From Bacillota bacterium (GTDB lineage: Bacteria; Bacillota; Limnochordia; Limnochordales; DUMU01): 64,000 bases of DNA. Shown one piece after another: positions 41,674 to 63,390 of this stretch. The number at the start of each line of letters is the position of its first letter. The stretch's first letter is position 1. A model generated the notes under the pieces. The model did no database searches. It had not been told where the DNA came from and was given only the letters and a program-made list of their open reading frames with translations. The stretch lies in assembly GCA_012839805.1 (NCBI GenBank), contig DUMU01000024.1:1-64000 (forward strand), written 5' to 3'. The translations under genes and the position numbers were made by a program.

Positions 41674-42002
41674 TTCGACTGTGGGCGACCTCCGTGATTC
41701 ACCGGTAGCTCGACCGGTCCCGGCCCGGGGCCTTTTGACCTGGCTCCTGGCAGAGCTCTTGGCCCGAGCTTGTCACCGACCCGTCGCCAGGCCACCCGCC
41801 GGCCAGGGCTCTCGGCGGAGTCTTTTGGTCGGGACTCTCCTCCCGGACGCTCCTCTGCGTGAATTTTACTCCCGCCGCCCGGGCCGGACCAGCAGGAAAC
41901 GACAGATATCAATCGAAAAACGAAAAGGCCGTTACAAATCCTTGCTGGTCATATGCCAACGAGGATCGTATCGGCAAGACCTTTCGGGAAGGAGGCCGGT
42001 TC
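41674..42002. other. Divergent intergenic region, no gene
   Basis: It separates the glycosidase-like gene (minus) from the CBM9-like gene (plus). It presumably holds both promoters, but I see no standard -35/-10 pair with good spacing and no riboswitch-like fold. Confidence 0.4.
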
Positions 42003-42725
42003 ATGCGCAAAGCAGTCTGGTTTTCCGCAGGTTTGGTCGTGTTGGCGGCGGTAATGGGGTTCGCAGGGGCGGTACTGGCTGCTCCTGGCTGGGTAATTGG
42101 CCCCGCACCGGGCCCGATCGTGATCGATGGCGACCCGGCGGAATGGCAGGTGGACAAGTTACCGGCCGAGTCGGTCATCGTCGTCAGCCCGTCGGTATCT
42201 CTGGTCAACGCCGGTACGATTAACACCGATGAAGACTCCAGCGCCAAGGTGTACCTGGCGTATGATGACGAGGCTTTGTACGTGCTGGCCGTGGTAAAGG
42301 ATAACAACATAGTGGGCGAACAGGCCGAAGTCAACATCTGGCAGAATACCTGTGTGGAACTCTGGTTCAACCTGGGTGACACCGCGGTACCCGGCAACCC
42401 GGCGGCCTACGGGGATTATGCCGACGAGGATTACCAGATTAACCTGACTCCCGTGACGGCCGGGGAGGAGAAGGCTTCCTACTGGGTCTACCCGGGCAGC
42501 AAGGCGGCGTACAATACCGGCCTGATTGATGTGGCGGCCAAGCTGGTGGAGGGCGGCTACATAATCGAAGCCAAGATCCCGAAGGCGAAGTTCCCGGGCT
42601 TCGAGGGCATCAAGCCGGGAGCGGAGTTCGGCTTCGCAGTCTCCCTGGTCCACATCGCTCCGGGCGGCGTCTGGTCGCACATCTGGACCCCGGGCGTTGA
42701 ATACGCACCGGTAACGGTGAAATAA
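42003..42725 (+). CDS. Secreted CBM9-like carbohydrate-binding protein
   Basis: A 240-residue exported protein. Residues 1-27 are a signal peptide (MRKAVWFSAGLVVLAAVMG...AVLA). The rest is a single CBM9-type beta-sandwich: PIVIDGDPAEWQVDKLPAE, VYLAYDDEALYVLAVVKDN, NIWQNTCVELWFNLGD, GGYIIEAKIPKAKFPG and GAEFGFAVSLVHIAPG follow the family pattern closely. CBM9 modules bind reducing ends of sugars; here the domain stands alone, so it may be a surface or periplasmic sugar-capture protein. AAGGAGG lies upstream of ATG 42003. A strong bidirectional hairpin follows. Confidence 0.85.
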   Translation: MRKAVWFSAGLVVLAAVMGFAGAVLAAPGWVIGPAPGPIVIDGDPAEWQVDKLPAESVIVVSPSVSLVNAGTINTDEDSSAKVYLAYDDEALYVLAVVKDNNIVGEQAEVNIWQNTCVELWFNLGDTAVPGNPAAYGDYADEDYQINLTPVTAGEEKASYWVYPGSKAAYNTGLIDVAAKLVEGGYIIEAKIPKAKFPGFEGIKPGAEFGFAVSLVHIAPGGVWSHIWTPGVEYAPVTVK

Positions 42726-44959: not shown

Positions 44960-45002
44960 GGCCGTAAATCGATCCTTTCGCACTTGGCGGTCGTTCTTGT
45001 CC

Positions 45003-45032
45003 ATTATAGGGTGCGGGTTTTGCCCGATGCCA
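45003..45032 (-). promoter_or_regulatory. Candidate promoter of the FAD oxidoreductase gene
   Basis: On the minus strand a perfect TATAAT (45008-45003) is preceded at 18 bases by TGGCAT, a weak -35. It lies ~45 bases before ATG 44959, which supports that start over the longer frame beginning at 45070. Confidence 0.45.
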
Positions 45033-45141
45033 GAGGAAGCGAGCAGGCAAGGACGAAATAAGTCTGGCATGCCGGCCTGAGTCGTGGCCGGCTGCGGTGG
45101 TGAGACTGGTCGTAGGGATTCAACAGGAGGGACGTCGCTAG

Positions 45142-48100: not shown

Positions 48101-48420
48101 AAGTGGAGCAGGAGAACGTGATCCTGGCGGTGTGGAAGGCTCCTGATCGTGTGCACCAGGCAGCCGGTGGTGGCAGAAAGGACGGAAACGAACCCGGTGG
48201 CGAGGCCGGTGAGTGGATCATCCGGGTGTACGAAGCATTTGGACGCCGGGGGCCCGTGACGCTCGCGTTCTTCCGGCCGGTGCGTTCAGCCGAACCCGTC
48301 AACTTGCTGGAAGAGCCGGAGAGGGTCGACCCGCGGGAGACTCCCACCGTGGAGGGTAACCGGGTGACGTTTCCCATGAAGCCCCAGGAGATCCGGACAT
48401 TGCGGATTCGTTTGGCCTGA
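45142..48420 (+). CDS. Alpha-mannosidase, GH38
   Basis: A 1092-residue retaining alpha-mannosidase using zinc. After a ~230-residue N-terminal beta domain comes the catalytic barrel: HLIGHAHIDLAWLWPIRET (about residues 238-256; zinc ligands H-x-H-x-D), EGRWEPLGALWVESDCNL (about 305-322), LAWLPDAFGFTWSLPQIL (about 350-367; nucleophile Asp), and a zinc His in RNQFHDILPGSGIHEIY. The C-terminal beta-sandwich (about 690-1092) matches the family. There is no signal peptide, so it probably degrades imported mannosides in the cytoplasm. AGGAGGG precedes ATG 45142. Gfo/Idh and transporter genes follow on the same strand. Confidence 0.93.
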   Translation: MYQMDQMEIRLLPGKIAKRARELEPFQFRERREVSPWRAMEGRLTREAARPELDDSSWRRLGMGESWGGRDATLWLRTRLVIPSTWEGGRIALRLRLGGEALVYWNGLPLQGLDEHHPEVDLTSIAKPGEEALLAVEAWSGMGNERHQLVESSLVLVDPLVRRFLLDLKAVLELAEAQAAEEPLREALLRAADRAVDRVDYLRKGSEEFRESVEAALRLLHDEMAGLRRRWGTRGRLHLIGHAHIDLAWLWPIRETRRKAARTFASVLHLMQKYPAYYFGQSQPQLYVWLKEDYPELYDGIRRRVAEGRWEPLGALWVESDCNLTGGESLVRQVVYGKRFFREEFGYDSRLAWLPDAFGFTWSLPQILKKAGVDYFVTTKISWNQFNRFPYDLFWWEGTDGSRVLAHFYHNPENGYNGNVRPGALRRTWDNFQQKELCDISLFSYGWGDGGGGPTEEMLEMFSRLQEAPGSPRLETGPVQAFLDHLPKEGLPVWNDELYLELHRGTFTTQSAVKKGNRRAEFALRRAEILASWAALMRGRDYGYPGRELEEAWKMLLRNQFHDILPGSGIHEIYEDAWRELDEVQKTARAISEGAIAALFPPDGKEPKAEGEAGRVLVVNDLAWERGDLVQVVVDRDLVERLMTGGRQLVVETPGGESLACQVVELPEAEEKVGILFEPRELPPMGWATYRLKNPSARAANRMGAGADLEAEAAAAHFRTLFRDGSWQVTTPFYQLTIDRTGAIGRLFDRRVQREVLPAGERANVIWAFEDKPNVWDAWDIDLFYEKKGWPVQEDPRVELLENGPLRLTFRITRGFHHSRVTQWLRLYRHSPRIDFETEIDWHERDVLLKAAFPVAVRSRQATYEIAYGYIERPTHTNTSWERARFEVAGHKWVDLSEDGYGVSLLNDAKYGHDVHGSTLRLTLLKSPVWPDPRADEGIQHFTYSLLPHPGDWRSAGTVARAYELNAPVWAGLVGESGMPARHSFVKVEQENVILAVWKAPDRVHQAAGGGRKDGNEPGGEAGEWIIRVYEAFGRRGPVTLAFFRPVRSAEPVNLLEEPERVDPRETPTVEGNRVTFPMKPQEIRTLRIRLA

Positions 48421-48535: not shown

Positions 48536-49528
48536 GTGCAGGTAGGCATAGTAGGTTTGGCTCTCTCTCACCCGTATATCTTCGCGGAGCTGGTTCGAGA
48601 GGAGGGCCACCAGGTCCGGGCCGTCTGGGACGAGGACCGCAGCAAGGCGCGGGAGCTCGCGGAAAAGACAGGGGCTTTACCCGTGGACGATATCGCCTCG
48701 CTTCTTCCCGGGGGGGAGGCAGCGGTGGATGCGGTCTTTGTCTGTACCCGGAGCGTAGATCATGCGCGCTATGCTCTGCCTTTCCTCGAGGCGGGAGTTC
48801 CGACTTTCGTCGACAAGGCGCTGGCCACCACGGTGGAGGATGTTAAGGCCCTGCTCGAGGCGGGGTCAAAGCCGGGCCGGGTGCTCATGTCGACGTCCGC
48901 GATCCGCTACGCCCCGGCCCACGTGGCGCTGCGGGAGCAGGTGAAGGCGGGTCGCCTCGGAAAGACCGCGTGGGCGGAAGCCCTGGTCGCTCACGACATC
49001 CAGCACTATCTGCAGGGGCCTTCGACCTGGCAAGACAGCATCGAACAGGGCGGGGGCTCCATCATCAACATGGGTATCCACGGGGTTGAGCCGCTGGTCG
49101 CGACCTGGGGCGGTGACGTGGCAACCGTTTTCTGCCAGGCCTCCCGCACCATCTACCCCACCAGCCAGTCCGAGGACACGGCGGTCATGCTGATTCGATA
49201 TCGCGACGGCCGGCTGGCCAGCGTCCAGGTGGTCTGCGGCAGCAGCACGCACGGCTACCAGTTGCGAGTTCAGGGGGACCGGGGGTTTCTGCTCGCCTCC
49301 GCCCCCAGCGGGCTTCTCGTGGGGTTGAACGGAGCGCTCTCGGGCAACGGTGACGGCAACGTGGAATATGGGTATAAGGAGACGGTTCGCCGGTTCCTGG
49401 AAGGGGCGGCGCGGGGAGAGGCCCCGATTCCTCTGGACGAGACGGCGGCGGTAATGGCGATTCTTTTGGCCGCGCGTCGATCGGCGGCCAGCGGACGGGT
49501 GGTGACCCGGCAAGAGATCGAGATCTGA
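48536..49528 (+). CDS. Gfo/Idh/MocA-family oxidoreductase
   Basis: A 330-residue NAD(P)-dependent sugar or inositol dehydrogenase-like protein. The N-terminal Rossmann fold begins VGIVGLALSHPYIF; the usual GxGxxG is altered to GLALSHP, which is notable. VDAVFVCTRSVDHARYALPF (about 63-82) and PTFVDKALATTVEDVKAL (about 87-104), with the lysine of the usual EKP replaced as DKA, follow. The C-terminal domain has GGGSIINMGIHGVEPL with the catalytic-region His. It is cytoplasmic. GTG 48536 follows GGGAGG. Probably it processes sugars released by the neighbouring glycosidases. Confidence 0.85.
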   Translation: MQVGIVGLALSHPYIFAELVREEGHQVRAVWDEDRSKARELAEKTGALPVDDIASLLPGGEAAVDAVFVCTRSVDHARYALPFLEAGVPTFVDKALATTVEDVKALLEAGSKPGRVLMSTSAIRYAPAHVALREQVKAGRLGKTAWAEALVAHDIQHYLQGPSTWQDSIEQGGGSIINMGIHGVEPLVATWGGDVATVFCQASRTIYPTSQSEDTAVMLIRYRDGRLASVQVVCGSSTHGYQLRVQGDRGFLLASAPSGLLVGLNGALSGNGDGNVEYGYKETVRRFLEGAARGEAPIPLDETAAVMAILLAARRSAASGRVVTRQEIEI

Positions 49529-49696: not shown

Positions 49697-52681
49697 ATGC
49701 AGGAAGAACGCGATGTGAAAGGGCGCCGCCGCCGGATGCGCTGGGCGGCGCTGGCGGCGCTGGCGCTCATGGCCGCCATCGGTATCTGGCAGGTGAGAGC
49801 CCAGGGCGATCAGGAGGCTCCGGCGGCACCGGCTCCAGAGGACGAGATTGCTTCTTTCAAGCTGGAACCGTCCTTTGCGGAGCGCAAGGCAGAGTGGGAC
49901 AAGGCGGGGGCCCGTGATACCCAGGGGGTCTCCATTACCGTCCCGGCCCTCCGGTATGTCGCGGCGAGCGACCCGGCGGCGGTGAAAGCGGTCGAGGATC
50001 CTGAGGGGCAGCGAGGCAAGGTTTTGGCCTGGCTGAAAGAAGAAACCTGGGTAGAATGGGAAGTCAACGTTCCCGAGTCCGGGTATTATCAGATGTCCTT
50101 GACCTATTACATGCCGCCCGGCAAGAATGCGGCTGCCGAACGGGACCTGATGATCGACGGGACGTACCCGTATAGCGAGGCCAAGCGGCTCACCTTCAGC
50201 CGGATGTGGAAGGATGCGGGCCTCCCGCGGAAAGACAGCCGCGGTAACCACATTCGCCCGCGTCAGATGGAGGTTTTCGGCTGGCAAACCGCCCCCCTCG
50301 AGGACAGCCGGCGCCTGGTATCCGAACCGCTGCGCTTCTATCTCACCGCGGGAACCCACCGGCTGCGCATGGGTGCGCTCCGTGAGCCGATGCTCATCGA
50401 AAAGATCGAGATCTATTCACCCGTGGTTTTGCCAACGTATGAGGAGAAGCTGGCTGAATGGAAGGCGGCCGGGCTCAAACCGGCTCGATCGCTGGTCAAG
50501 GTACAAGGCGAAGAGGCCGCGTTGAAGTCGGACCCGACCCTGCGCCGGGAGTATACGTCGGATCCAAGGGAGGAGCCCGCGTCACAGGGTAAGATCATCC
50601 TCAACGCCTTTGGTGCCTGGCGCTGGCGGCTGGCAGGGGCATGGGCCGAATGGGTCTTCGATGTCCCCGAAGACGGGCTTTATGAATTTGACGCCAAAGT
50701 ATGGCAGGGCTGGAACGACGGCCTCCCCGTTTACAGGCGGCTCTACGTCGACGGCAAGGTTCCTTTCCGCGAAGCCAATGCCATCGCCATTCCGTTCAAC
50801 CGCCGGCAGCAGATCTGGCGTGCCGGGGCCTTCAAGGAGGGCGACGAGCCCTTCCTTCTGGGTCTGACCAAGGGGCGGCATGTGATCCGTCTCGAGGTGA
50901 GCGTTGGGCCCTTGGCAGAGACGGTCAGCACGATTGAGGAAGTTTCCCGGCGGCTTTCGGTCTTCAACCGGGAAGTGGTCATGGTAACCGGGCCAGACCC
51001 CGACCCGAACTTCGAGTACAGGATCGAGAACAATATCCCCGACCTGGTGCCGAGGCTAAATGACACCGCGGCCATGTTGGAGAAACAGGTAAAGCAAATG
51101 ACCGCCGCGGTGGGGCGCCGGCCGGCCGCCGCCAACACCCTGGCCATGGTGGCAGACCAACTCCGGCACATGGCCGAGTACCCCGAAACCATCACCACCC
51201 CGGGTGGGATCAAGAGCTTTGGCGACAACCAGACGAGCCTCAGCACCTGGGCGACTTCTCTCCAGGGACAGCCGCTGGAGGTAGACTGGGTCGCCCTGGC
51301 GCCGCCCGGCCAGCAATGGGCCCGGGCCGGATCGAATTACCTGGAGTTTGCCGAGCGGACCGCGAAAGAGCTGGTGGCATCGTTCGGCAAGGATTACGGC
51401 CAGATCGGTGACGTCTACGAGGGGACGGAAGCCCTGAACGTCTGGGTGGCGATGGGCCGGGAGTGGGCCGAGATCATCAAGGACATGGTTGAGGATGATT
51501 TCACGCCGAAGACGGGCATCCCGGTCAACATCAACATTCTCCCCGGCGGGCAATTGGGGGCGGGCAGCGTCAACGTGATCTTGCTTGCCGCCGTCACCGG
51601 CAAGACGCCCGACGTGGCGCTGGGCGCTTCGCCGGATCTACCGGTGGAGTTTGCCATTCGCGATGCCATGACGGCGCTCGACCAGTTCCCGGACTACCAG
51701 GAGGTGCGCAAGCGTTTCCGTCCCGGCGCGTTGATCCCATACCACTACCAGGGCCACGACTATGCGCTGCCCCTGAGCCAGGACTTCATGATGCTCTTCT
51801 ATCGCAAGGACATCCTGAGCTTGCTGGGGCTAAAGATCCCCAACACCTGGGACGAGGTTTACGAGATGCTACCTGAGCTTCAGGCGAACGGGCTCGAGTT
51901 CTTCTACCCGTCGCCGGCGGCGGTAGGAGACATCGGAGGCTTCACGCCGTTCCTCTACCAGTACGGGGGTGAGTATTACACGCCGGACGGGCTTCGCTCC
52001 GCCCTGTATACCCCGGAGGCACAGGCGGCCTTCAAAGAGTGGACGGAGCTATGGACCAACTACAAGATTCCCATCCAGGCCGATTTCTACAACCGGATGC
52101 GCACAGGCCTGATGCCGATCGGCGTAGCCGGCTACGGGCTTTACGTCTCCCTGTCGGTGGCCGCCCCGGAGCTGGCCGGCTGGTGGGGGATGAGCCCGCT
52201 TCCCGGCCACGTGCGAAACGGCGAGATCAACCGGACGGCCGGTGGGGGCGCGAGCGTCGGCGTAATATTCAAGATCAAGGATCCAAAGAAGCGGCAGCAT
52301 GCCTGGGAGTTCCTGAAGTGGGCTACCAGTGACGAAGTGCAGATGCGCTTCGGCCAGGAAATCGAGGGGCTCCTGGGAGTCGCGGCCCGCTGGAACAGCG
52401 CCAACGTCAACGCCATCAAGGGCCTTCCGTGGCCGAGCCGGGATCTCAACGCCATCCTGGAGCAGTGGCGCTGGCTAAAAGAAGTCCCGGTCGTACTCGG
52501 CGGCTATTTCACCGGGCGGCACGTATCCAACGCCTGGAACCGCACGGTTATCAACGGGATGTTGCCTAGAGAGTCGCTGGAGCTGGCGGTGAAAGACATC
52601 GATCGAGAGCTCCGGGCCAAGCAAGAAGAGTTCGGTATTACTCCGGAGAAGGCTCAAAAGCTCTACCTGGGGGAGGAGTGA
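49697..52681 (+). CDS. Giant ABC solute-binding protein with N-terminal beta-sandwich modules
   Basis: A ~994-residue exported protein. A single hydrophobic segment (MRWAALAALALMAAIGIW) near residues 14-31 is a signal or anchor. Two similar beta-sandwich modules follow (about 115-241 with WVEWEVNVPESGYYQMSLTY; about 315-408 with WAEWVFDVPEDGLYEFDAKV), resembling carbohydrate-binding folds and each other. A helical linker (~440-570) leads to a family-1 solute-binding domain (~575-988): GREWAEIIKDMVEDDFTPKT, GKTPDVALGASPDLP, YALPLSQDFMMLFYRKDIL. Normal binding proteins are ~430 residues. It heads the transporter operon; the permease start overlaps or nearly overlaps its stop. The start is uncertain: 49622 is also open. 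Confidence 0.87.
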   Translation: MQEERDVKGRRRRMRWAALAALALMAAIGIWQVRAQGDQEAPAAPAPEDEIASFKLEPSFAERKAEWDKAGARDTQGVSITVPALRYVAASDPAAVKAVEDPEGQRGKVLAWLKEETWVEWEVNVPESGYYQMSLTYYMPPGKNAAAERDLMIDGTYPYSEAKRLTFSRMWKDAGLPRKDSRGNHIRPRQMEVFGWQTAPLEDSRRLVSEPLRFYLTAGTHRLRMGALREPMLIEKIEIYSPVVLPTYEEKLAEWKAAGLKPARSLVKVQGEEAALKSDPTLRREYTSDPREEPASQGKIILNAFGAWRWRLAGAWAEWVFDVPEDGLYEFDAKVWQGWNDGLPVYRRLYVDGKVPFREANAIAIPFNRRQQIWRAGAFKEGDEPFLLGLTKGRHVIRLEVSVGPLAETVSTIEEVSRRLSVFNREVVMVTGPDPDPNFEYRIENNIPDLVPRLNDTAAMLEKQVKQMTAAVGRRPAAANTLAMVADQLRHMAEYPETITTPGGIKSFGDNQTSLSTWATSLQGQPLEVDWVALAPPGQQWARAGSNYLEFAERTAKELVASFGKDYGQIGDVYEGTEALNVWVAMGREWAEIIKDMVEDDFTPKTGIPVNINILPGGQLGAGSVNVILLAAVTGKTPDVALGASPDLPVEFAIRDAMTALDQFPDYQEVRKRFRPGALIPYHYQGHDYALPLSQDFMMLFYRKDILSLLGLKIPNTWDEVYEMLPELQANGLEFFYPSPAAVGDIGGFTPFLYQYGGEYYTPDGLRSALYTPEAQAAFKEWTELWTNYKIPIQADFYNRMRTGLMPIGVAGYGLYVSLSVAAPELAGWWGMSPLPGHVRNGEINRTAGGGASVGVIFKIKDPKKRQHAWEFLKWATSDEVQMRFGQEIEGLLGVAARWNSANVNAIKGLPWPSRDLNAILEQWRWLKEVPVVLGGYFTGRHVSNAWNRTVINGMLPRESLELAVKDIDRELRAKQEEFGITPEKAQKLYLGEE

Positions 52682-52686
52682 CCATA

Positions 52687-53640
52687 GTGGCGACGGCAGG
52701 TCAAGTGATAGAACGGGCGGTAGCCCGCCCGGCGCCCGGGCGCTTTGCCCGGATCATCGAAGCGTATCGTAAGGAGAAGGTGGCACTCCTCTTCCTCGCT
52801 CCTTTTGCCCTGGCCTTCCTGGTCTTCACGGTGGCACCAGTCCTAACGGCCATTGGACTGAGTTTTACCTACTACAACATGTTGCAGCCGCCGAAGTGGA
52901 TCGGCCTGACCAACTATCGACTGCTCTTCCTGGACGACAGTGTGTTCTTGATCGCCATCAAGAATACGTTCATCTTCGCTTTGCTTGCGGGTCCTCTTAG
53001 TTTCACCGCTTGTTTCTTGTTCGCCTGGCTCATAAACATGCAACGCTTCCGCAAGCCCCTGGCGCTCATCTTCTACGCGCCGTCCCTGGTAAGCGGTATA
53101 GCCATGGGCTTGATCGCATCGTATTTCCTCGCCGCGGACCGGTACGGGCTGCTCAACAACTTCCTCATCAGCATCGGGGCTTTGAACCAGCCGGTGCCGT
53201 TCCTGCGTGACGTGCGCTTCATCATGCCCTTCGTCATCCTGGTACAGCTTTACATGAGCCTCGGCAACGGCTTCCTGGTCAACATTGCCGGGCTGCAGAA
53301 TGTTGATAGAACGCTATACGAAGCCGCCGCGATCGACGGTATCCGGTCCAAGCTGCAAGAAGTGTGGTATATAACCTTGCCGTTGATGAAGCCGCAGCTT
53401 CTCTTCAACGCGGTCATGTCTATCGTGTCTTCCTTTAACGTGTTCTGGTTGGCGGTTGGCTTGGCGGGCTTCCCGAGCTGGCAGTACGCAGCCCACACCA
53501 TAGTGGCCCACATGTACGACTACGCGTTCATTCGCTTCTCGCTCGGGTACGCGTCGGCCATCGCGGTGGTTCTCTTCCTGTTCACTTTCGGTCTCAACCG
53601 GATCGTTTTCCGTGCCCTGTCGACCCGGGGGGACTACTGA
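52687..53640 (+). CDS. ABC sugar permease (MalF/UgpA type)
   Basis: A 317-residue inner-membrane permease with six predicted helices, the first at about residues 33-55 (VALLFLAPFALAFLVFTVAP). The ATPase-contact EAA loop reads YEAAAIDGIRSKLQEVWYITLPL (about residues 214-236, EAA---G intact). It partners the permease encoded next and the giant binding protein. GTG 52687 has GGGAGGAG at good distance; GTG 52678, overlapping the upstream stop, is the alternative. No ATPase gene is linked, so a shared MsmX-like ATPase is expected. Confidence 0.92.
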   Translation: MATAGQVIERAVARPAPGRFARIIEAYRKEKVALLFLAPFALAFLVFTVAPVLTAIGLSFTYYNMLQPPKWIGLTNYRLLFLDDSVFLIAIKNTFIFALLAGPLSFTACFLFAWLINMQRFRKPLALIFYAPSLVSGIAMGLIASYFLAADRYGLLNNFLISIGALNQPVPFLRDVRFIMPFVILVQLYMSLGNGFLVNIAGLQNVDRTLYEAAAIDGIRSKLQEVWYITLPLMKPQLLFNAVMSIVSSFNVFWLAVGLAGFPSWQYAAHTIVAHMYDYAFIRFSLGYASAIAVVLFLFTFGLNRIVFRALSTRGDY

Positions 53641-53695
53641 TGGACGAGGTAGGGCTGATGACGGAGACGAGTGTGACGGGTAAGGAGGAAGTGGC

Positions 53696-54580
53696 GTGAG
53701 CACTTATACTGGCTTGTACTACGGCGTGAAGCCCGTTCGTCGCCGGGCCTTCACCTTCGGGCAGGCGGTGCTGCTGGTGTTCCTGCTCGGGATGGCCGCC
53801 TTCATGCTGCTGCCACTGGTTTTCGTGGTGGTCAACGCCCTAAAACCCATCGACGAGCTACTGCTCTACCCCCCGCGGTTCTGGGTGCAAAGGCCTACCC
53901 TGGCCAACTTCGGGGACCTGGTCCTGGCAAGCTCTGCCCTGACGGTGCCCTTCATCCGGTACGTCTTCAACAGTGTTTTCGTCACCGTCACCGTGGTGGG
54001 GCTTACGATCCTGGTAGGGAGTATGGCCGCGTACGCGCTCTCGAACAAGCATCGCTGGCCCGGCCAGGAACTCTTCTTCACCTTGGTGGTCAGCGCCCTA
54101 ATGTTTGCTCCCGAGGTAACGTCGATACCTCGTTATCTGATCGTTAACCGGCTGGGATGGATCGACCACTACTGGGCCCTCATCATTCCACCTCTCGCGA
54201 GCACGTACGCCGTCTTCTTGATGAAGCAGTTCATTGACCAAGTACCACGGGAGATAATCGAAGCTTCTATCATTGACGGGGCAACCGACTGGACCATTTT
54301 CTGGAAGATCATCATGCCTTTTGCCCAGTCGGCCTGGGCGACATTGGGTATCACCTCGTTTGTGGCCACCTGGAACGACGCCTTTTCGCCCCTCATCTTC
54401 ACCCGTACCGAGGTCATGAAGACGCTACCGCTGATGTTGCAGACGATCGGCGGGGGAATCGCCCGGGCCGGGGCCGGGGCCGCGGCAACCTTCCTCATGA
54501 TCTTTCCGCCGATCATCATCTTCACTTTCCTGCAGAGCCGGGTAGTCGAGAGCATGGCGTACTCCGGCATCAAGTCGTGA
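53696..54580 (+). CDS. ABC sugar permease (MalG/UgpE type)
   Basis: A 294-residue permease with six membrane helices. The EAA motif is IIEASIIDGATDWTIFWKIIMP (about residues 187-208). It starts with GTG 53696 after AAGGAGGAAG. It is the second half of the first permease pair; the short 55-base gap and same direction indicate an operon. The last helix (ATFLMIFPPIIIFTFLQSRVV) and terminal SGIKS are typical of CUT1 sugar permeases. Confidence 0.92.
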   Translation: MSTYTGLYYGVKPVRRRAFTFGQAVLLVFLLGMAAFMLLPLVFVVVNALKPIDELLLYPPRFWVQRPTLANFGDLVLASSALTVPFIRYVFNSVFVTVTVVGLTILVGSMAAYALSNKHRWPGQELFFTLVVSALMFAPEVTSIPRYLIVNRLGWIDHYWALIIPPLASTYAVFLMKQFIDQVPREIIEASIIDGATDWTIFWKIIMPFAQSAWATLGITSFVATWNDAFSPLIFTRTEVMKTLPLMLQTIGGGIARAGAGAAATFLMIFPPIIIFTFLQSRVVESMAYSGIKS

Positions 54581-54600
54581 GCAGAGGGGGTTGTGCGAGC

Positions 54601-56055
54601 ATGAGCAGGGGGATGACGAAAAGATGGGGGACCGGGCTCGCCCTCCTCGTGATGCTCCTCGGGTTTGCGAGCCGGGCCGAGGGAGCGGCGGAGTTTGTCT
54701 CTTACACGCTGGACTGGCGTAACCGCCGGGTGGCCGCACCCCTTGGATACGTGGTCGAGGATGTTCTGAGCGGGATCGGACAACTCACCGAACCGATGCG
54801 TTCACCGCAGGACCTTTTCCTGGATGCGGAGGAGAACCTCTGGATCGCGGATACCGACGCGAACCGGGTCATCAAGATGACCCGGACCGGCCAGGTCCTG
54901 CTCACCATAACCGAGGCGGGGGGAACGCCCCTCTACGGTCCCCAGGGTGTGTTCGTCAAGAATAACGGCGAGGTCTACATTGCCGACACAGGCAACAAGC
55001 GCATCGTACGACTGAACCCCGACCTGTCGGTGAATACGATCTATGAAGCTCCCAAGTCGCTGAAGTTGGGTCCTGATTTCAACTTCCAGCCCACCAAGAT
55101 TGTGGTCGACAAAAGCGACACCATGTTTATAGTCAACGGGGGCGATTTCCACGGATTCTTGCAGATGGACGCGAAGGGGCGGTTCCGGCAGTGGTTTGGC
55201 GCCAACCGGGTGCCCTTCAGCCTGACGCGAGTGCTGACTCGGATCTTCGCCACCGAGCAGCAGCGGGAGCAACTGACGCGGCAGCTGCCGCCCCCGCCCA
55301 GCAACGCGTTCATCGATCATAGCGGTTATATGTACGCTACGAGCGCGTTCGCTACCAGAGCCCAGATCAAGAAGCTGAATTCGGTGGGCGGCAACTCGTT
55401 CCCCGACAAGTTCTACGGTGAGATCGACGTCGTCGGATGGACGCTGACTCGTCCCCAGTTCGTTGACGTAACGGTTGACAAGAACGACATCGTGAGCGCG
55501 CTGAACGCCCAGTCCGGCCGGGTCTATCAGCTGGATCAGGACGGTAACACGCTGCTGGTGTTCGGTGGCCAGGGGGACCAGCGGGGGGTCTTCAAGTACC
55601 CGAGCAGCCTGGTGGTGGATTCCCGGGGCTGGCTTTACGTACTGGACAACCAGCGTAACGACATCCAGGTATTCCGGCCGACGGAGTTCGCCAACCTGGT
55701 GCACGAGGCAAGCCAGCTCTACTACCAGGGGCGTTACCCCGAGGCGGCACGCCTTTGGGAGCAAGTTTTGGACATGAACACCAACTACGAGCTGGCGCAC
55801 AAGGGCATTGCCCGCAACTTCTACAAGGACGAGGAGTACGCGAAGGCAATGAGGGAGTACAGGCTTGCCCACGACAAGAAAGGGTACTCGATGGCCTTTG
55901 CCGAACTGCGCAAGGAATGGGCAAGAAAGAACTTCGTGTTGCTCATCGTCCTGATCGGAGCGGGAATCTTGGTGCTAACGGGTATTGGCGTGCTGATCGT
56001 GCTCTACGTCCGGGCTGGCTGGCGCCACCCCGGTGAAGTAGTGGGGGAGGCGTGA
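54601..56055 (+). CDS. NHL-repeat and TPR membrane protein
   Basis: A 484-residue protein. The N-terminal signal segment (KRWGTGLALLVMLLGFASRAEG) is followed by an NHL-type beta-propeller (about 50-370): SPQDLFLDAEENLWIADTDA, GPQGVFVKNNGEVYIADTGN, then YPSSLVVDSRGWLYVLDNQRND. TPR-like helices come next (about 385-450; LYYQGRYPEAARLWEQVLD), then a C-terminal membrane helix (VLLIVLIGAGILVLTGIGVL). The propeller probably lies outside the membrane. It sits between permease and Yip1 genes in the sugar operon, hinting at a sensory or assembly role. ATG 54601 is chosen; GTG 54577 is possible. Confidence 0.82.
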   Translation: MSRGMTKRWGTGLALLVMLLGFASRAEGAAEFVSYTLDWRNRRVAAPLGYVVEDVLSGIGQLTEPMRSPQDLFLDAEENLWIADTDANRVIKMTRTGQVLLTITEAGGTPLYGPQGVFVKNNGEVYIADTGNKRIVRLNPDLSVNTIYEAPKSLKLGPDFNFQPTKIVVDKSDTMFIVNGGDFHGFLQMDAKGRFRQWFGANRVPFSLTRVLTRIFATEQQREQLTRQLPPPPSNAFIDHSGYMYATSAFATRAQIKKLNSVGGNSFPDKFYGEIDVVGWTLTRPQFVDVTVDKNDIVSALNAQSGRVYQLDQDGNTLLVFGGQGDQRGVFKYPSSLVVDSRGWLYVLDNQRNDIQVFRPTEFANLVHEASQLYYQGRYPEAARLWEQVLDMNTNYELAHKGIARNFYKDEEYAKAMREYRLAHDKKGYSMAFAELRKEWARKNFVLLIVLIGAGILVLTGIGVLIVLYVRAGWRHPGEVVGEA

Positions 56056-56056
56056 C

Positions 56057-56662
56057 ATGAACACCTTTCGCTTGATGATGGCGGTCTTGTTCCACCCGAG
56101 CGACGTCTTCTATGAGGTGAAGCAGCACAATCACATCCTGGCCGGGATGTGGATGCTCCTTGCCCTGGTCGTCATCCGGTTCGTCAACATCTTCGTTACC
56201 GCCTACCACTTCCGGACGGTAGACCCGGAGCAGGGCAACCTCATCTTCGAGCTGGCGCGTATTCTGTTACCGGGCCTTACGTTCGTTTTGGCGCAGTATG
56301 CCATAACGACCATCGCGGACGGCGAAGGCTTCATCGGCCAGGTTTTCGTCGGGACGTTTCTGGCGTTTGCCCCTTATGTGGTCTTTTCGCTGCCTCTCGC
56401 GGCGCTCACTAACGTGCTCAGCCTAGCCGAGGGCGGCGTGGTCGGATGGCTCCAGTTGATAATCTACGGCTGGGTGGCGCTCTTGCTGATCTCGATGACG
56501 CAGACGATCCACAATTACGACTTCGGGCGGGCGCTGACCATCATCGGGTTGACCGTCCTGGTCATGGTGCTGGTTTGGGCTACCATCGCGCTTATCTATG
56601 CCCTTTCCGACCAGGTGGTCCGCTTCGTCAACGAGGTCATCGTGGAGTTGTCCGTACGGTGA
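56057..56662 (+). CDS. Yip1-family membrane protein
   Basis: A 201-residue protein with about five hydrophobic helices, matching Yip1-type proteins: FHPSDVFYEVKQHNHILAGM at the N-terminus (family PxxxFxxI/V-like start), then LILPGLTF-like and YVVFSLPLAALTNVL helices. Bacterial Yip1 domains have no defined role. It follows the NHL-TPR gene by two bases and precedes DUF5696 by 15, so all three are one transcript and probably one membrane complex. Confidence 0.82.
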   Translation: MNTFRLMMAVLFHPSDVFYEVKQHNHILAGMWMLLALVVIRFVNIFVTAYHFRTVDPEQGNLIFELARILLPGLTFVLAQYAITTIADGEGFIGQVFVGTFLAFAPYVVFSLPLAALTNVLSLAEGGVVGWLQLIIYGWVALLLISMTQTIHNYDFGRALTIIGLTVLVMVLVWATIALIYALSDQVVRFVNEVIVELSVR

Positions 56663-56677
56663 GGGGGGGAGAAAGCG

Positions 56678-59017
56678 ATGCGGCGTGAGCGTACGGTAGG
56701 CAAGCGGATCTGGCTCTGGGGGTGGCTCGCGGTCCTGCTGCTCGTAGTGTTGGTGGGCAGCGTTTGGGCGGAAGATAGCGGCTTCTTCTCGGGGTTCAGC
56801 CTGGAGGACTTTGGCTTTGGAGACCTTTTCAAAGAGTTGTTCGGCTCCGAGAGTGAGCAGCAAGGGGAGGCGGCCCAGGCAGAGCCGGAGGCGCCCCTGA
56901 CCCCCGAGGAGCAGAAGGCGGTAGACAAGGGGCTCACCCGTCACTACCGGGTCAAGGCGGAGACCGATACCCTGGTGCTTTGGTTCGACGAGACCACTTC
57001 CAACCTGGCGGTGGAGGACAAACGGAACGGTTTCATGTGGCGCTCCGCGCCTAACATCGATACCAGCCAGTTGCAGATCTCTTCGCTATGGATCGATCAC
57101 CTGCAATCTCCCTTCATCTTCACCTGGACGCAGGATTTTGAACGCACGCGGACGGGTAACACGAAACAGGCGGCGCCGGAGATGACCTTCGAGCCGGTGG
57201 AGGGGGGCGTCAAGGTACACTACAAGTTCACCGGCAGCGGTGAGGGCATCCAACTCTCCATCATCTACCGGATCGTGGGAGATGAGTTGGTGGTCTCCAT
57301 ACCGTACCAGGACTTCAAGGAAGATAAAGAGAAGAGCAATTTCCTGGTATCACTGGAGATGCTTCCCTTCCTCGGGGCCGCCACCGATAACGATCCGGGG
57401 TATGCCTTCTATCCAGATGGGTCGGGCGCGATCACCCGGTTTGAGCCTGTACATGCTCCGGAGTATACGAGGGGGTACTCGGAGTTCGTCTACGGGCCGG
57501 AGGATTTCCCGTGGCCGGGAAGACCACAAGTGGCGCAGACGGCCATGTTGCCCGTTTTCGGCATGGTACGGGGCGACGCAGCCTTCCTCGGGATCATCAC
57601 TCAGGGTGAAGCAAGCGCCAAGGTCAATTTCTCGCCCAGCGGGCATATAGTGGGGCTCTACCGGACCGATGCCGAACTGGTCTACCGGCGTAACTACCAG
57701 GCGATGTTGCGGCGCTGGACGCCGGTAGAGAAGTTCGCGGAAGACCCCATCAAGGGCGACCGGGAAGTGCGTTACATCTTCCTGGACAAGGCGAATGCTT
57801 CCTACTCCGGAATGGCGATGCGGTACCGGCGGTATCTGATTGAGGAGGCGGGAGTAAAACCCGTCACCCTTACCGAGTATCCGCTGCACCTGCGGCTTTT
57901 CATGGGCATTCAGAAGCCGATGCTCGTATTCAAGCAGTTCGTGGCGATGACCACCTTCGAGCAGGCGAATACCATAGTCCAGGATCTCATGGACAACCGG
58001 GGAGTGAAAGGGATCGACCTGACGCTGGTGGGCTGGAACCGGGGCGGCTGGTTCGGTAACTGGCCGCGGCGACTCCCGATTCCGAGCCAGCTGGGCGGGG
58101 CAAGCGGCCTGAAGACGCTAACAACCGAGATGAAGCGGCGGAACGTCCCGGTCTACCTGGAAGATAACTATATCGAAGCATACCGGGAGGCGGGCGGCTT
58201 TGCGCCTCGCGTCGACGTGGTGCGCGGGGTCAACAAGCTTCCCATCTACAACCCGAGAGACAACGACCACCTCCTGCTCAGCCCCATGGTGGCTCTGCGC
58301 CATGCCCGGCGTGACATTCCAGAGCTCGCCAAGACGGGGGTGAGCGGGGAGGAGTTCGTATACTTCGGCGAGACCATGTTCCCCGACTATAATGCCCGCA
58401 GTCTCCCGAAAGGGCAGACCGTGCTGGAGCGGGATGAGACGGCCGACACCTGGATGCAGATCGTAGAGACCTCCCGCAAGCTCCTGGGTCGAGCGGCAGC
58501 CCACGGGGCGAACGCGTACCTCTTCGGCCACGTCGATGCCCTCAGGGACCTGCCCATGAGAGATAGCGGCTATGTGTTCGCGGACGAGGCGGTGCCCTTC
58601 ATGCAGATGGTGCTCCACGGCCTGATCCCCTATAGCGGAGAGACCGCGAACCTGCGCTACGACCGGCGCCGGCAATTCCTGCGCCAGATCGAATACGGCG
58701 CCATACCGGTCTTCGAGCTGACCTGGAAGTCCTCGGTGGAGTTGGAACCCACTGAGTACAACCGCCTTTTCAGCTCGGAATACCGGCTGTGGGCCGACCG
58801 GGCCGCGAAGGAGTACGCGGAGATGGCGAAGATTTTCGCCCCGTTGATGAACCAAGCCATGGTCAAACACGAAAAGCTCGCGCCTAAGGTTTTCCGGACC
58901 ACGTATGAGGATGGCACGAGCATCGTGGTCAACTACAACGAAACTCCGTGGGACCAGGGTGGTATCCATGTGGATGCCCTCGGCTACACGGTGATTCCGG
59001 GAGGGAAAGCGCGATGA
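56678..59017 (+). CDS. DUF5696-type secreted protein
   Basis: A 779-residue exported protein with a signal peptide (KRIWLWGWLAVLLLVVLVGSVWA, to about residue 31), an acidic linker, then a beta-rich domain (about 85-390; WFDETTSNLAVEDKRNGFMW) and a TIM-barrel-like domain (about 395-720) with KGIDLTLVGWNRGGWFG, VPVYLEDNYIEAYREAGGF, ELAKTGVSGEEFVYFG and ANAYLFGHVDALRDLP. This matches DUF5696, a family found in sugar-uptake operons of Bacillota; the barrel suggests glycosidase ancestry but no proven activity. The C-terminus VVNYNETPW resembles the end of glycosidase beta-sandwiches. It overlaps the next gene by ATGA. Confidence 0.8.
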   Translation: MRRERTVGKRIWLWGWLAVLLLVVLVGSVWAEDSGFFSGFSLEDFGFGDLFKELFGSESEQQGEAAQAEPEAPLTPEEQKAVDKGLTRHYRVKAETDTLVLWFDETTSNLAVEDKRNGFMWRSAPNIDTSQLQISSLWIDHLQSPFIFTWTQDFERTRTGNTKQAAPEMTFEPVEGGVKVHYKFTGSGEGIQLSIIYRIVGDELVVSIPYQDFKEDKEKSNFLVSLEMLPFLGAATDNDPGYAFYPDGSGAITRFEPVHAPEYTRGYSEFVYGPEDFPWPGRPQVAQTAMLPVFGMVRGDAAFLGIITQGEASAKVNFSPSGHIVGLYRTDAELVYRRNYQAMLRRWTPVEKFAEDPIKGDREVRYIFLDKANASYSGMAMRYRRYLIEEAGVKPVTLTEYPLHLRLFMGIQKPMLVFKQFVAMTTFEQANTIVQDLMDNRGVKGIDLTLVGWNRGGWFGNWPRRLPIPSQLGGASGLKTLTTEMKRRNVPVYLEDNYIEAYREAGGFAPRVDVVRGVNKLPIYNPRDNDHLLLSPMVALRHARRDIPELAKTGVSGEEFVYFGETMFPDYNARSLPKGQTVLERDETADTWMQIVETSRKLLGRAAAHGANAYLFGHVDALRDLPMRDSGYVFADEAVPFMQMVLHGLIPYSGETANLRYDRRRQFLRQIEYGAIPVFELTWKSSVELEPTEYNRLFSSEYRLWADRAAKEYAEMAKIFAPLMNQAMVKHEKLAPKVFRTTYEDGTSIVVNYNETPWDQGGIHVDALGYTVIPGGKAR

Positions 59018-59925
59018 GCAGCCAAGTAGAGGCTCGGCCAATCCGGCCCCGGCGGCTCCGGATCCCGCTGCACACGCAGCAGGCGATCATGGGCTACCTT
59101 TTCATCAGCCCCTGGATCGTGGGGTTCCTGGTTTTCCTCGCCTACCCGCTGGTCCAGTCCTTCTGGCTCTCCTTCAACAACCTGGAGAACCTGGTCAACT
59201 TCCAGATCAAATACATAGGTCTGGCTAACTACATCGAAGCATTCCTGATCGACGTGCGTTTCCTGCCGATGCTTTACACGGTCGTGCGTAACTCTTTCAT
59301 CGACGTACCCTTGATAATCGTCTTCTCCCTCTTCACGGCGATCGTGGTCAACCAAAAGCTCCCCGGGCAGGGGATCTTCCGGTCCATCTTCTTCCTTCCC
59401 GTGGTGATCAGCTCGGGGCTCGTCGTCCGCGAGCTCTTCGGACAATACCAGGCCGAGACGGGAGGCTCGCCCATTGTGCGCGGGATAGACGTCCCCACGG
59501 TGATCTTGCTGGTCGGACCGGAGTTCGCCCGCACCGTATTCGACCTGATCAACCGGCTGGCGCTGGTGCTGTGGAGAACGGGAGTGCAAATCCTCCTCTT
59601 CCTCGCCGGTCTTCAGGGAATCTCGAGCACTCTCTATGAGGCAGCGCGGGTAGACGGGGCGAGCGAATGGGAAAAGTTCTGGAAGATCACGCTGCCGATG
59701 ATCTCACCCATCATCCTGCTCGTAGCGATCTACACCATCGTTGACTCGTTCACCGACATCTTCAATCCCATTCTGGACTACATAAAGAACCTGGCCTTCG
59801 CCGGCCAGTTCCGCATGGGATATGCAGCCGCGCTGGGGTGGATCTACTTCGTGGTGGTCTTCCTCATGATGGGACTCGTGTTCTGGATAGGCCAGCGCCA
59901 TACGTTCTACGCCGGTGAACGGTAG
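59014..59925 (+). CDS. ABC sugar permease (second pair, MalF type)
   Basis: A 303-residue six-helix permease. The first helix is YLFISPWIVGFLVFLAYPLV. The EAA loop STLYEAARVDGASEWEKFWK lies at about residues 207-226. It differs enough from the permease at 52687 to be a separate transporter subunit rather than a recent copy. ATG 59014 overlaps the DUF5696 stop (ATGA) and has GGGAGGG upstream. Confidence 0.92.
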   Translation: MSSQVEARPIRPRRLRIPLHTQQAIMGYLFISPWIVGFLVFLAYPLVQSFWLSFNNLENLVNFQIKYIGLANYIEAFLIDVRFLPMLYTVVRNSFIDVPLIIVFSLFTAIVVNQKLPGQGIFRSIFFLPVVISSGLVVRELFGQYQAETGGSPIVRGIDVPTVILLVGPEFARTVFDLINRLALVLWRTGVQILLFLAGLQGISSTLYEAARVDGASEWEKFWKITLPMISPIILLVAIYTIVDSFTDIFNPILDYIKNLAFAGQFRMGYAAALGWIYFVVVFLMMGLVFWIGQRHTFYAGER

Positions 59926-59952
59926 TCCGAAACGGAAAGGGGGAGACCGAGG

Positions 59953-60966
59953 GTGGCTCAGATCGCTGAAGAACTGCGCGTGAAAGCCCGGCGGGAGGGC
60001 TTGAAGCTAGCCTGGAAGGGGCGCCTGCAAAGCTGGGTGGGGAAGGCCTTCATTTACTTGGTCTTGTTTGATATCAGCTTCGTCTTCCTTTCGCCCGTCA
60101 TCTACATGGTGACGACGTCCTTGAAGACGGTAGCCGACGTTCTCGACCCGACCATCTACTGGGTGCCGTCCGGCTTCAACCTGGACAACTTCACTTTGTC
60201 CTGGAAAGCATTGAAGTATTTCCCAACCTGGAGCGCCATCCAGCAGGCCTGGACTTCCGGCGGGATCGTGGCTTTGTACACGCTTCTCAAGACCGAATCG
60301 GCTTTCTTCCGGAGCACGATCATTGCCGTGCTGGCCGCGATCGGCCAGGTGATATCGTGTTCCCTGGTGGGTTACGGGTTCGCCCGGACGAAATTCCCCG
60401 GGCGGGAAGCGCTCTTTCTCCTGGCGATGTTCACCTTCCTCGTGCCTCCGCAGACGATCATCATCCCGCTTTTCATCGTCTATAAGCAGCTACACTGGAT
60501 CGACACGTACCGCCCGTTCATCGTCCCGGCGTTCTTCGCCAACGGGCTCCGCGGAGCGATCTTCATCTTTATCTTCCGGCAGTTCTTCCGGGGTCTGCCC
60601 TGGGAGCTGGAGGACGCGGCCCGCATCGACGGCGCGGGATGGCTGACCATGTACTGGCGGGTCATGCTGCCCCTGGCCAAGCCGGCCATCGTGGTCTCGT
60701 TCCTGTTCTCGCTGGTGTGGCACTGGAATGACTACTTCGAGCCGGCCATTTACCTGATGAACCAGGAGAACTTCACGTTGCCGCTCAGGTTGTCAATATT
60801 CTGGACCGCCCTCAATGAGGTGACGGGAGGGCAGGCGAGCCGGTTCTTTAATGAGCCGTTGATCATGGCGGCCAGCTTCCTTGTAATCGTACCCCCGCTG
60901 ATTCTCTATGTTTTCACCCAGCGCCTCTTCGTCGAGAGCGTGGAGCGGACGGGTCTCGTCGAATGA
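59953..60966 (+). CDS. ABC sugar permease (second pair, MalG type)
   Basis: A 337-residue permease, longer than usual because of an extended periplasmic loop near residues 75-115 (PTWSAIQQAWTSGGIVALYT). The EAA loop is WELEDAARIDGAGWLTMYWR (about 217-236). Helices follow the CUT1 pattern, with the final IVPPLILYVFTQRLFVES. GTG 59953 follows AAGGGGGAG. It is the last gene of the operon, with a strong terminator 50 bases downstream. No matching ATPase or second binding protein is linked. Confidence 0.9.
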   Translation: MAQIAEELRVKARREGLKLAWKGRLQSWVGKAFIYLVLFDISFVFLSPVIYMVTTSLKTVADVLDPTIYWVPSGFNLDNFTLSWKALKYFPTWSAIQQAWTSGGIVALYTLLKTESAFFRSTIIAVLAAIGQVISCSLVGYGFARTKFPGREALFLLAMFTFLVPPQTIIIPLFIVYKQLHWIDTYRPFIVPAFFANGLRGAIFIFIFRQFFRGLPWELEDAARIDGAGWLTMYWRVMLPLAKPAIVVSFLFSLVWHWNDYFEPAIYLMNQENFTLPLRLSIFWTALNEVTGGQASRFFNEPLIMAASFLVIVPPLILYVFTQRLFVESVERTGLVE

Positions 60967-61051: not shown

Positions 61052-61167
61052 CCGGCGGAGGGCGGGGAGGAATCGGGGAGGCAGAGCCGAAGAAGGTGGG
61101 GCAACCGGGTAACGGGAGTAGCCGCGAAGGGGCGGGCCCGGAAGCCGTTCCTCGGAAGGATGGGAGC

Positions 61168-63390
61168 ATGGGAAAGATGCGCGGAAAAACGACCGGGGGG
61201 GCTCGGCTGATCAGGGGCGGGCAGCCGGGCACACTCTTTGCTCTTCTCTTCGTGACGATGCTTATTATCAGCGGGTTTTCCGGCGAGGCGGCTGAGGGGC
61301 CGGCCACCGGTTCACCACCGGCTATATACCCGGTAGAGGCAGTACGTCCGGGCCTGGAAGGAGTAGGTTACACGGTCGTCCGGGGAACCAAGGTGGAGCA
61401 GTTTCCGGTGGAAATTCTGGGACTGGTAAAGCAGGCCGGCCCCTCCGGCAGCGACCTGGTGCTGGTGCGGGTGGGGGGAGTGGTGCGGGCGGCCGGGGGG
61501 ATTGCGGCCGGCATGAGCGGGAGCCCGGTCTACGTGGGCGATCAGCTACTGGGCGCGATCGGTTACGGGTTCGAGTTGTCCGATCCCAGCCTCGGGCTGG
61601 TTACCCCGGCGGCAGAAATGGCGAAGGTCCTGGCCCGGGCCAAAGGCGAGCCGGAGAAGGCGGGAAGCTCAGAGACGACGAACCAGACGAAGGCCCGGAG
61701 CGATCGTCCTGGGGGATTTGAGTCCGTGGTGGTAGCCTCTTCGCCGGCCGAGGGGCGGGCGTGGCAGCAGCGGTTCGGGGCGGGGGTGGCCGTTTTCGTC
61801 CCGGTGGCGACGCCGGTTCTGGTAAACGGGCTGGGAGAGCGGGCGAGGAAATGGTTACAGCAGAGCTTGGATCCCTACCCGGTGGTGATTCGCTCAGGGC
61901 TGGGGTTCCTGTCCCCAGTGGCAGGGGGAGCGCGGCCCGGGGACGGCGAAGAGTGGGAGCGCTTGCCGGACCTTGGGTGGTGGTACGGGGAAGCGACCAG
62001 CGGGGCGGCCGGGGAGATAGGGAGCGGGGAGAGCCGGGGAAGCGAGGGGGGGCAGGACCAACCATTTCCCGCCCCCGGACAGGCGTTGGCGGTGCAACTG
62101 GTCCGGGGCGACGTGGATGTCAGCGCGCTTGGCACTGTCACCTGGGTGGAGGGCGACCGGCTCGTAGGATTCGGCCATCCCTTCCTCAGCAAAGGTGAAA
62201 CCCATCTGTTCCTGGGCCCGGCCTACGTCGTCGGAGTGGTGCCGTCCATCAGCATGCCCTTCAAGGTTGGTTACCCTTTGCCCGCCGTAGGCACGCTGGT
62301 ACAGGACCGTGCGGCCGGGGTGGCCGGGGTAATAGGCGTCCTGCCCGAATACGTGCAGGTGGAGGTGAAAATCCGGGAAAAGGGAAAGCAGGCGGTTACT
62401 ACCCGGGCCGATGTCGTTTGGGATGAGGAGTTGACCTCGGGCCTGGTAGGAACGGTGTTGCTCGAGGCGTTCGACCGGTCTCTCGATCGGGTGGGGCGGG
62501 GAACCGCGCAGGTCAAACTCCAGGCGCGGGTAGACGGGATGCAACTGCCCGTCATCCGGACGAACCTCTTCGCGAGCCGGGCGGATATCGCAGCGGCCGC
62601 GGTAAGTGAGGCGACGGAACTGGTCGACCGGATCGCTGCCAACCCCTTCCGGGCAGCGCGGCCCACCCGGTTGGTGGTGGAAGCCGACGTCGATCCGGAG
62701 CCGAAGGTCGCGATGATTGAACGGGTGTACGCCCCCTCGCGGCCGGTAAAGCCAGGAGATCGGGTGGAGCTGCGCGTGAGGCTGCGACCGTTCCGGGGAG
62801 AGGTGGAGACCCGTCTTCTGGTGCTGGAGCTTCCCGAAGACTTGGCTCCGGGCGTGCTTACGGTGACGGTACGGGGGGGCAGTGGTTTTGTCGAGAGCCT
62901 CCCGGCGAAGCCGGGACCTCAGGGAGGTGAGCCCGGCGGCGAGGCTCCCCATGGCTCCGCGCTACTAGAAGAAGGACCGACACCGCCGGAGTCGCTCGAG
63001 GAGTGGCTGGAAGAGTTCACGAAGCGGGAAAAGAACAACGACCTGGTGGCGGAGTATTGGCCCGAATCCGCCAAGGCGGGGGCTACCGGAGCGATGAAGG
63101 AGGCGGATTCCACGCCTCCTTCGGAGAAAAGTAGCGATGGAAAGGGCGGAGCCGACCCGGGGCTCGAAGCTTGGCGGGCCATCGTCGAGAGGGCGGAAAA
63201 AGAGGTAGGCCCGTCGCAGCCGGTGAAGGTGATCCTGCCCACTCCTTATGTCATCGAGGGTTGGATCGAGGTAGATCTTGAGATCGCGGAGCCCAAAGCG
63301 AAAGCTGAAGCTGCAACGGAGCAGGCGGACCAGAGCACCGAGCCGGGAGCCGGCGACTCCCAGCCAAGGGAGACCGATCATGATTCATAG
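61168..63390 (+). CDS. SpoIVB-type S55 peptidase-domain protein, permuted motif order
   Basis: A 740-residue exported protein. A hydrophobic segment (GTLFALLFVTMLIISGFSG, about 21-39) serves as signal or anchor. The S55 domain has the serine motif GGIAAGMSGSPVYVGDQLLG (about 111-130) and the histidine motif GDRLVGFGHPFLSKGETHLF (about 330-349). In Bacillus SpoIVB the His precedes the GDSGSP serine, so the order is swapped here, as in a class of larger S55 proteins. PDZ-like N-terminal sequence (IYPVEAVRPGLEGVGYTVVRG) precedes it. C-terminal regions are beta-rich, then low-complexity. An insert lies near 275-305. It neighbours an Omp85 gene, which suggests an envelope role. ATG 61168 follows GGAAGG. 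Confidence 0.82.
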   Translation: MGKMRGKTTGGARLIRGGQPGTLFALLFVTMLIISGFSGEAAEGPATGSPPAIYPVEAVRPGLEGVGYTVVRGTKVEQFPVEILGLVKQAGPSGSDLVLVRVGGVVRAAGGIAAGMSGSPVYVGDQLLGAIGYGFELSDPSLGLVTPAAEMAKVLARAKGEPEKAGSSETTNQTKARSDRPGGFESVVVASSPAEGRAWQQRFGAGVAVFVPVATPVLVNGLGERARKWLQQSLDPYPVVIRSGLGFLSPVAGGARPGDGEEWERLPDLGWWYGEATSGAAGEIGSGESRGSEGGQDQPFPAPGQALAVQLVRGDVDVSALGTVTWVEGDRLVGFGHPFLSKGETHLFLGPAYVVGVVPSISMPFKVGYPLPAVGTLVQDRAAGVAGVIGVLPEYVQVEVKIREKGKQAVTTRADVVWDEELTSGLVGTVLLEAFDRSLDRVGRGTAQVKLQARVDGMQLPVIRTNLFASRADIAAAAVSEATELVDRIAANPFRAARPTRLVVEADVDPEPKVAMIERVYAPSRPVKPGDRVELRVRLRPFRGEVETRLLVLELPEDLAPGVLTVTVRGGSGFVESLPAKPGPQGGEPGGEAPHGSALLEEGPTPPESLEEWLEEFTKREKNNDLVAEYWPESAKAGATGAMKEADSTPPSEKSSDGKGGADPGLEAWRAIVERAEKEVGPSQPVKVILPTPYVIEGWIEVDLEIAEPKAKAEAATEQADQSTEPGAGDSQPRETDHDS

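Follow-up and report, generated by a model that had tools for sequence, protein, structure and literature searches.

CUT1 permeases that depend on a solute-binding protein (SBP) are importers, and sharing of an ATPase is established for importers of the MsmX/MsmK type. Transporter models built on a single SBP with a single permease pair would not account for the gene cluster described here, which occupies positions 49697 to 60966 of the window, a 64,000-nucleotide stretch (positions 1 to 64,000 of contig DUMU01000024.1, assembly GCA_012839805.1) from a bacterium of the phylum Bacillota. The cluster encodes a very large SBP, two pairs of CUT1 permeases, an NHL-TPR protein, a Yip1-domain protein and a DUF5696 protein. 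Judged from gene content, conservation and modelled folds, the eight genes probably constitute a surface-anchored module for the capture, processing and import of glycans. The module is filed as a variant of the CUT1 importers for which no earlier description was found, and a categorically new machine is possible.

The eight-gene cluster and its conservation

Open reading frame and Pfam analysis located all of the tightly spaced genes, put at seven or eight in the initial annotation, as follows (aa, amino acids):

49697-52681, + strand, giant anchored SBP of 994 aa (Pfam SBP_bac_1 at aa 592-883, E 3.6e-24)
52678-53640, + strand, CUT1 permease P1a, MalF/UgpA-like (NCBIfam UgpA, E 4e-12; Pfam BPD_transp_1 below cut-off)
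53696-54580, + strand, CUT1 permease P1b, MalG/UgpE-like (BPD_transp_1, E 3e-13)
54577-56055, + strand, NHL beta-propeller and TPR protein with a C-terminal membrane helix at 448-482 (Pfam NHL, E 1e-13, and TPR_16; hydropathy)
56057-56662, + strand, polytopic membrane protein with a Yip1 domain (Pfam Yip1, E 1.6e-7; several hydrophobic segments)
56678-59017, + strand, DUF5696 protein, membrane-anchored, GH129/GH101-like, with three domains (Pfam, E 1.4e-168)
59014-59925, + strand, CUT1 permease P2a, MalF-like (BPD_transp_1, E 3e-10; start overlapping the DUF5696 stop, ATGA)
59953-60966, + strand, CUT1 permease P2b, MalG-like (BPD_transp_1, E 1e-14)

The intergenic gaps, first to last, are -4, 55, -4, 1, 15, -4 and 27 bases, which indicates a single transcription unit with translational coupling. 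The start of P2a is most likely the overlapping one at 59014 rather than that of a longer frame from 58948.

The neighbourhoods of 139 distinct DUF5696 loci from Bacillota and Chloroflexota were scored with hidden Markov models built from the window's own proteins. These loci include 68 named ones (Paenibacillus, Lederbergia, Cohnella, unnamed Bacillota, and Chloroflexota including Thermoflexus and Caldilineaceae) that were added using a 10-sequence DUF5696 alignment. The host itself is of Limnochordales type, its closest relatives with a name being compost metagenome-assembled genomes of Limnochordales/Limnochordaceae. On the same strand near DUF5696, an NHL(-Yip1) gene is present in 138 of the 139 loci, P2a in 137 and P2b in 135; in the loci without one of these (L113, L196, L201, L075 and L102), the contig or the fetched stretch ends at that point. 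P1a, P1b and the giant SBP (the latter within 10 kb) are found in 111, 110 and 108 loci, respectively. Gene order and spacing recur in both phyla, with median gaps of -4 bases from DUF5696 to P2a, 8 from P2a to P2b and 12 from P1b to NHL (87 loci). The genes of unknown role are thus not absent from homologous operons. As far as can be judged from sequence, DUF5696 and the permeases are almost invariably accompanied by NHL and Yip1, and the earlier suggestion of a distinct glycan-import machine is supported.

Among 73 genomes of the class, 46 encode DUF5696 (45 above the Pfam cut-off), as do 33 genomes of a 299-genome sample of the phylum (26 above the cut-off). A reverse search of the same 73 genomes with an NHL-Yip1 profile matched 45, namely the 45 with DUF5696. 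Chance juxtaposition of the genes was ruled out by these identical genome sets and by the recurrence across loci. Moreover, the pairwise distances of DUF5696, NHL, P2a, P2b, P1b and SBP correlate (r 0.81-0.91), and none of 500 permutations reached the observed r in the pairs tested (permuted r ≤0.23). In the permease tree, a single branch separates P2a from all other permeases (support of 100), and another does so for P2b (support of 99). P1a and P1b require 2 and 3 changes, respectively, and are thus nearly separated in this way; the changes trace mainly to distant P1 copies that belong to modules but had been labelled 'other'.

The number of DUF5696 copies in the 73 class genomes ranges from 0 to 11. 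Four genomes of ~2 Mb each (G025, G027, G028 and G029) carry 8 to 11 copies, several of them with no giant SBP and P1 pair inside 20 kb. At one locus (L060, G004:C360, on the same contig as L117), the DUF5696 frame is broken by one TAA into parts of 537 and 207 aa in an otherwise intact module, as a result of either a sequencing error or pseudogene formation.

No ATPase gene lies within the cluster, as had been noted at the outset, and this probably reflects the use of a shared ATPase encoded elsewhere: the 2.78 Mb genome includes about 78 SBP_bac_1 matches versus one OB_MalK-type ATPase, found on another contig (G000:C23, about 142977-143150). The EAA loop, which docks the ATPase, is kept in all four permeases, with its Gly present in 83 of 83 sequences of each, and only 5 of the first 128 neighbourhoods had a full-length MalK match close by. 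The one MalK-type ATPase may serve dozens of CUT1 importers in this genome.

DUF5696, NHL-Yip1 and the binding proteins

An AlphaFold2 (AF2) model of DUF5696, computed from 42 family members, has a mean predicted local distance difference test (pLDDT) score of 89 and consists of a beta-sandwich, a TIM-like barrel and a C-terminal beta domain. In Foldseek searches, the fold resembled that of the GH129/GH101 glycosidases, with DagB (5opq, E 3e-34) and NagBb (5wzn, E 5e-30) as the best matches and GH101 next. The family profile also matched GH129 chains by sequence (E 4.7e-12 and 4.8e-10). Model and profile together support assignment of DUF5696 to the GH129/GH101 superfamily by fold and by sequence homology; it is not filed in the GH129 family proper. 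NagBb and DagB have only the catalytic residue Asp435/Asp486 in common, and DagB was proposed to fall outside GH129 (PMC5698469). The initial proposal that DUF5696 includes a barrel-like region and may act on glycans is borne out by fold and sequence, with catalysis as a putative function.

In the alignment of 42 sequences, R585 and N658 are invariant, E672 is kept in 41 sequences and D570 in 38, and D247 and D636 are likewise kept in most. D570 sits within the stretch expected for the nucleophile, a site that none of the alignments obtained spans, as profile alignments to GH129 chains stop before it. Comparison by hhalign with a GH101 relative gave a weak match (probability 0.7%, E 0.083), and a search for relatives with a profile of the C-terminal half gave no match. 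A Pfam search for GH129 found no relative in 199 genomes, and no match in the control either.

In about 86 of the 139 loci, the NHL gene encodes a protein of ~700 aa that ends in a Yip1 domain, and in about 50 the two are split as in the window; these assignments were automatic and a few overlapping frames are misassigned. In one fused example (L100), Pfam finds NHL together with Yip1 at 522-690 (E 1e-15), and the Yip1 protein of the window aligns to positions 493-698 of the fused NHL-Yip1 profile. The state changes seven times on the DUF5696 tree. The fusions indicate that the NHL-TPR and Yip1 genes of the window encode two halves of one functional protein, which backs the earlier view of the two as a unit. 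As judged by hydropathy, the NHL propeller and TPR lie on one side of a membrane helix that is followed by the polytopic Yip1 domain. Among the solved propellers that the NHL part resembles is the extracellular domain of PknD (PDB 1rwi). The only indication of a defence system was that PD-T4-6 matched the NHL repeats weakly (E 2e-4), which was dismissed as a repeat match.

The giant SBP consists of an N-terminal membrane helix (aa 2-35), two beta-sandwich domains resembling carbohydrate-binding modules (CBMs) of families CBM6 and CBM35 (about aa 75-245 and 265-402), a helical bundle (404-523) and the SBP_bac_1 domain. Residues 1-590, for which there is no Pfam match, were modelled by AF2 with a pLDDT of 91.9. 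The top Foldseek matches of this part are large multidomain proteins containing such beta-sandwich domains, and isolated CBM6 and CBM35 modules are matched also (TM-score to target about 0.6-0.77). An ordinary small SBP is present near the module in 108 of the 139 loci, and both kinds of SBP in 87. As the small SBP directly adjoins many modules (26 of 73 downstream genes and 23 of 68 upstream genes), a system of two SBPs and two permease pairs is likely.

Proposed function and rival explanations

The gene set and its order, co-inheritance, domain folds, membrane anchors, EAA loops and the single MalK-type ATPase were all read from sequence, and the following scheme would fit them. The giant SBP would hold a polysaccharide or long oligosaccharide via its two CBM-like domains and pass products to its own SBP domain, and the GH129-like DUF5696 would trim, or at least bind, glycan ends beside the transporter. 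The P1 pair, coupled to the giant SBP, and the P2 pair, coupled to DUF5696 and often to a second, ordinary SBP, would import different products, with the shared MalK-type ATPase driving both. The NHL-TPR ectodomain on its Yip1 membrane domain would be a scaffold or sensor linking the parts, and neighbouring glycosidases and regulators would fit each copy to a substrate. A bolder version, in which the NHL-TPR-Yip1 scaffold and the GH129-like surface protein physically join the two CUT1 pairs and the CBM-bearing SBP into a new class of machine that parallels the Sus systems in Bacillota and Chloroflexota, is put forward tentatively, with less confidence than the import module itself.

Several points weigh against this interpretation. 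The giant SBP is missing within 10 kb in 31 of the 139 loci, some of which are at contig ends, and the P1 branch therefore appears separable. The distances of P1a follow those of the rest of the module less closely (r about 0.5) than the distances of P1b do; either misassigned copies or real exchange could be the cause. The loci are not independent samples, as Paenibacillus and multi-copy genomes are over-represented. Finally, a conserved catalytic pair could not be demonstrated in DUF5696 by the profile alignments, hhalign or the C-half profile.

The separability of P1 leads to the strongest rival, in which the locus consists of two neighbouring CUT1 importers of the ordinary kind. NHL-Yip1 and DUF5696 would then assist the P2 importer alone, and the giant SBP and P1 would form a separate importer that often lands adjacent. 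The 31 loci in which the NHL-Yip1/DUF5696/P2a/P2b core stands without giant SBP and P1 would be expected under such an arrangement, particularly as one multi-copy genome contributes several of these copies, on long contigs, and the small SBP found near most modules could be the binding protein of P2. However, P1b ends a median of only 12 bases before NHL, the gene order is the same in Bacillota and Chloroflexota, and the distances of the giant SBP and P1b track those of DUF5696 and NHL (r 0.87-0.90). Two independent importers are thus considered unlikely, though they deserve more weight than the remaining alternatives.

Resemblance of the NHL propellers to the PknD extracellular domain, and the histidine kinases sometimes found adjacent, could also point to a device that is mainly for sensing, in which NHL-TPR-Yip1 and DUF5696 would recognise glycans and regulate either expression or the activity of the permeases, DUF5696 being a non-catalytic receptor with a glycosidase-like fold. 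Consistent with this, acidic residues are not strictly conserved at the DUF5696 strand ends where GH101 relatives bear theirs, and N612 (38 of 42 sequences) stands after barrel strand 5. Yet D247, D570, D636 and E672 are retained in most of the 42 sequences, and no kinase, output or DNA-binding domain was found by Pfam or NCBIfam in any core protein, which makes a primarily sensory role improbable. Least probable by far is export, or cell-wall turnover, of the bacterium's own glycan in place of nutrient uptake. Several parts are anchored extracellularly and GH129-like folds have no exclusive link to plant polysaccharides, but the permeases are of the importing, SBP-dependent kind, and the range of copy number, together with hemicellulase genes in the flanks, suits nutrient use and not housekeeping. 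An import module therefore remains the preferred reading of the eight genes.

Flanking genes and comparison with known systems

Additional features of the window, outside the core, are:

37501-38835, + strand, orphan small SBP (SBP_bac_1, E 6e-40; no adjoining permease), possible second SBP of the P2 pair
38821-41673, - strand, DUF6259
41859-42725, CBM9-like
42857-45070, - strand, flavin adenine dinucleotide (FAD) oxidoreductase
45142-48420, + strand, GH38 alpha-mannosidase (Pfam, E 3e-90; syntenic in the same-family genomes G061 and G060), accessory and not core
48536-49528, + strand, Gfo/Idh/MocA oxidoreductase (Pfam; syntenic in G061 and G060), upstream, accessory and not core
61096-63390, S55 (SpoIVB)-peptidase-like, directly 3' of the module

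The block from DUF6259 to Gfo/Idh precedes the module in all three same-family genomes. The orphan SBP lies between HypD/HypE genes and DUF6259, and has an ortholog (71%) at the same position in G061. The S55-peptidase-like gene occurs at its position only in the three same-family genomes, and is outside the module.

Neither mannose-containing substrates, suggested initially from the upstream GH38 and Gfo/Idh genes, nor fucose substrates are supported as a general feature. Only 3 of the loci searched yielded GH38, and all three belong to the bacterial family of the window; the flanks elsewhere include GH51, GH43, GH10, GH26, GH113, Gfo/Idh, histidine kinases, and AraC and LacI regulators. A mannan-specific role for the module in general was rejected on these grounds, and mannosides are a plausible substrate for the copy in the window only. 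The variety of flanking glycosidases and regulators suggests that the core is substrate-general and that each copy probably owes its specificity to the adjoining genes. Such adaptation would make the module work like a Gram-positive counterpart of the Sus systems.

A literature search, with preprints and subscription papers outside it, found no paper naming DUF5696 and no description of the NHL, Yip1 and SBP combination; the Paenibacillus glycan studies examined do not mention NHL or Yip1 proteins. That a unit of four to eight genes, three of them encoding partners of unknown role, has been conserved whole in two phyla, at up to 11 copies per genome, implies that these bacteria have a general route for complex-glycan uptake. 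The analysis places DUF5696 in a fold family and in a genomic context and offers a testable role for bacterial Yip1 and NHL-TPR proteins, and the module could serve to mark loci for glycan use in bacteria from compost, gut and hot springs.

Among described systems, CUT1 importers with a shared ATPase (MsmEFG/MsmK and AraNPQ/MsmX) have in common with the module an SBP, MalF/MalG-like permeases with EAA loops, and the lack of an ATPase in the cluster, with one MalK-type enzyme elsewhere. The module differs in having two permease pairs in one unit, an anchored SBP of ~1000 aa that bears a pair of CBM-like domains, and partners of the NHL-TPR, Yip1 and GH129-like kinds that are obligate. DUF5696 shares the three-domain architecture and barrel of the GH129/GH101 enzymes NagBb (5wzn), DagB/ZgGH129 (5opq) and EngBF (2zxq), with Foldseek E values of 3e-34 to 1e-18, but is only about 15% identical to them, and has a membrane anchor and an obligate transporter neighbourhood. 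PknD-type sensors likewise carry an extracellular NHL propeller on a membrane protein, whereas the module protein has TPR and Yip1 domains and no kinase. With the Sus-type polysaccharide utilization loci of Bacteroidota, the module shares a conserved core for capture, trimming and import, many copies per genome and variable flanking glycosidases. Neither a SusC TonB-dependent porin nor SusD was detected among the eight core genes by Pfam or NCBIfam, and where Sus systems use these, the module has ATP-binding cassette permeases in a Gram-positive-type membrane. The module may thus be, by analogy in mode of working only, a Gram-positive answer to the Sus glycan-uptake systems.

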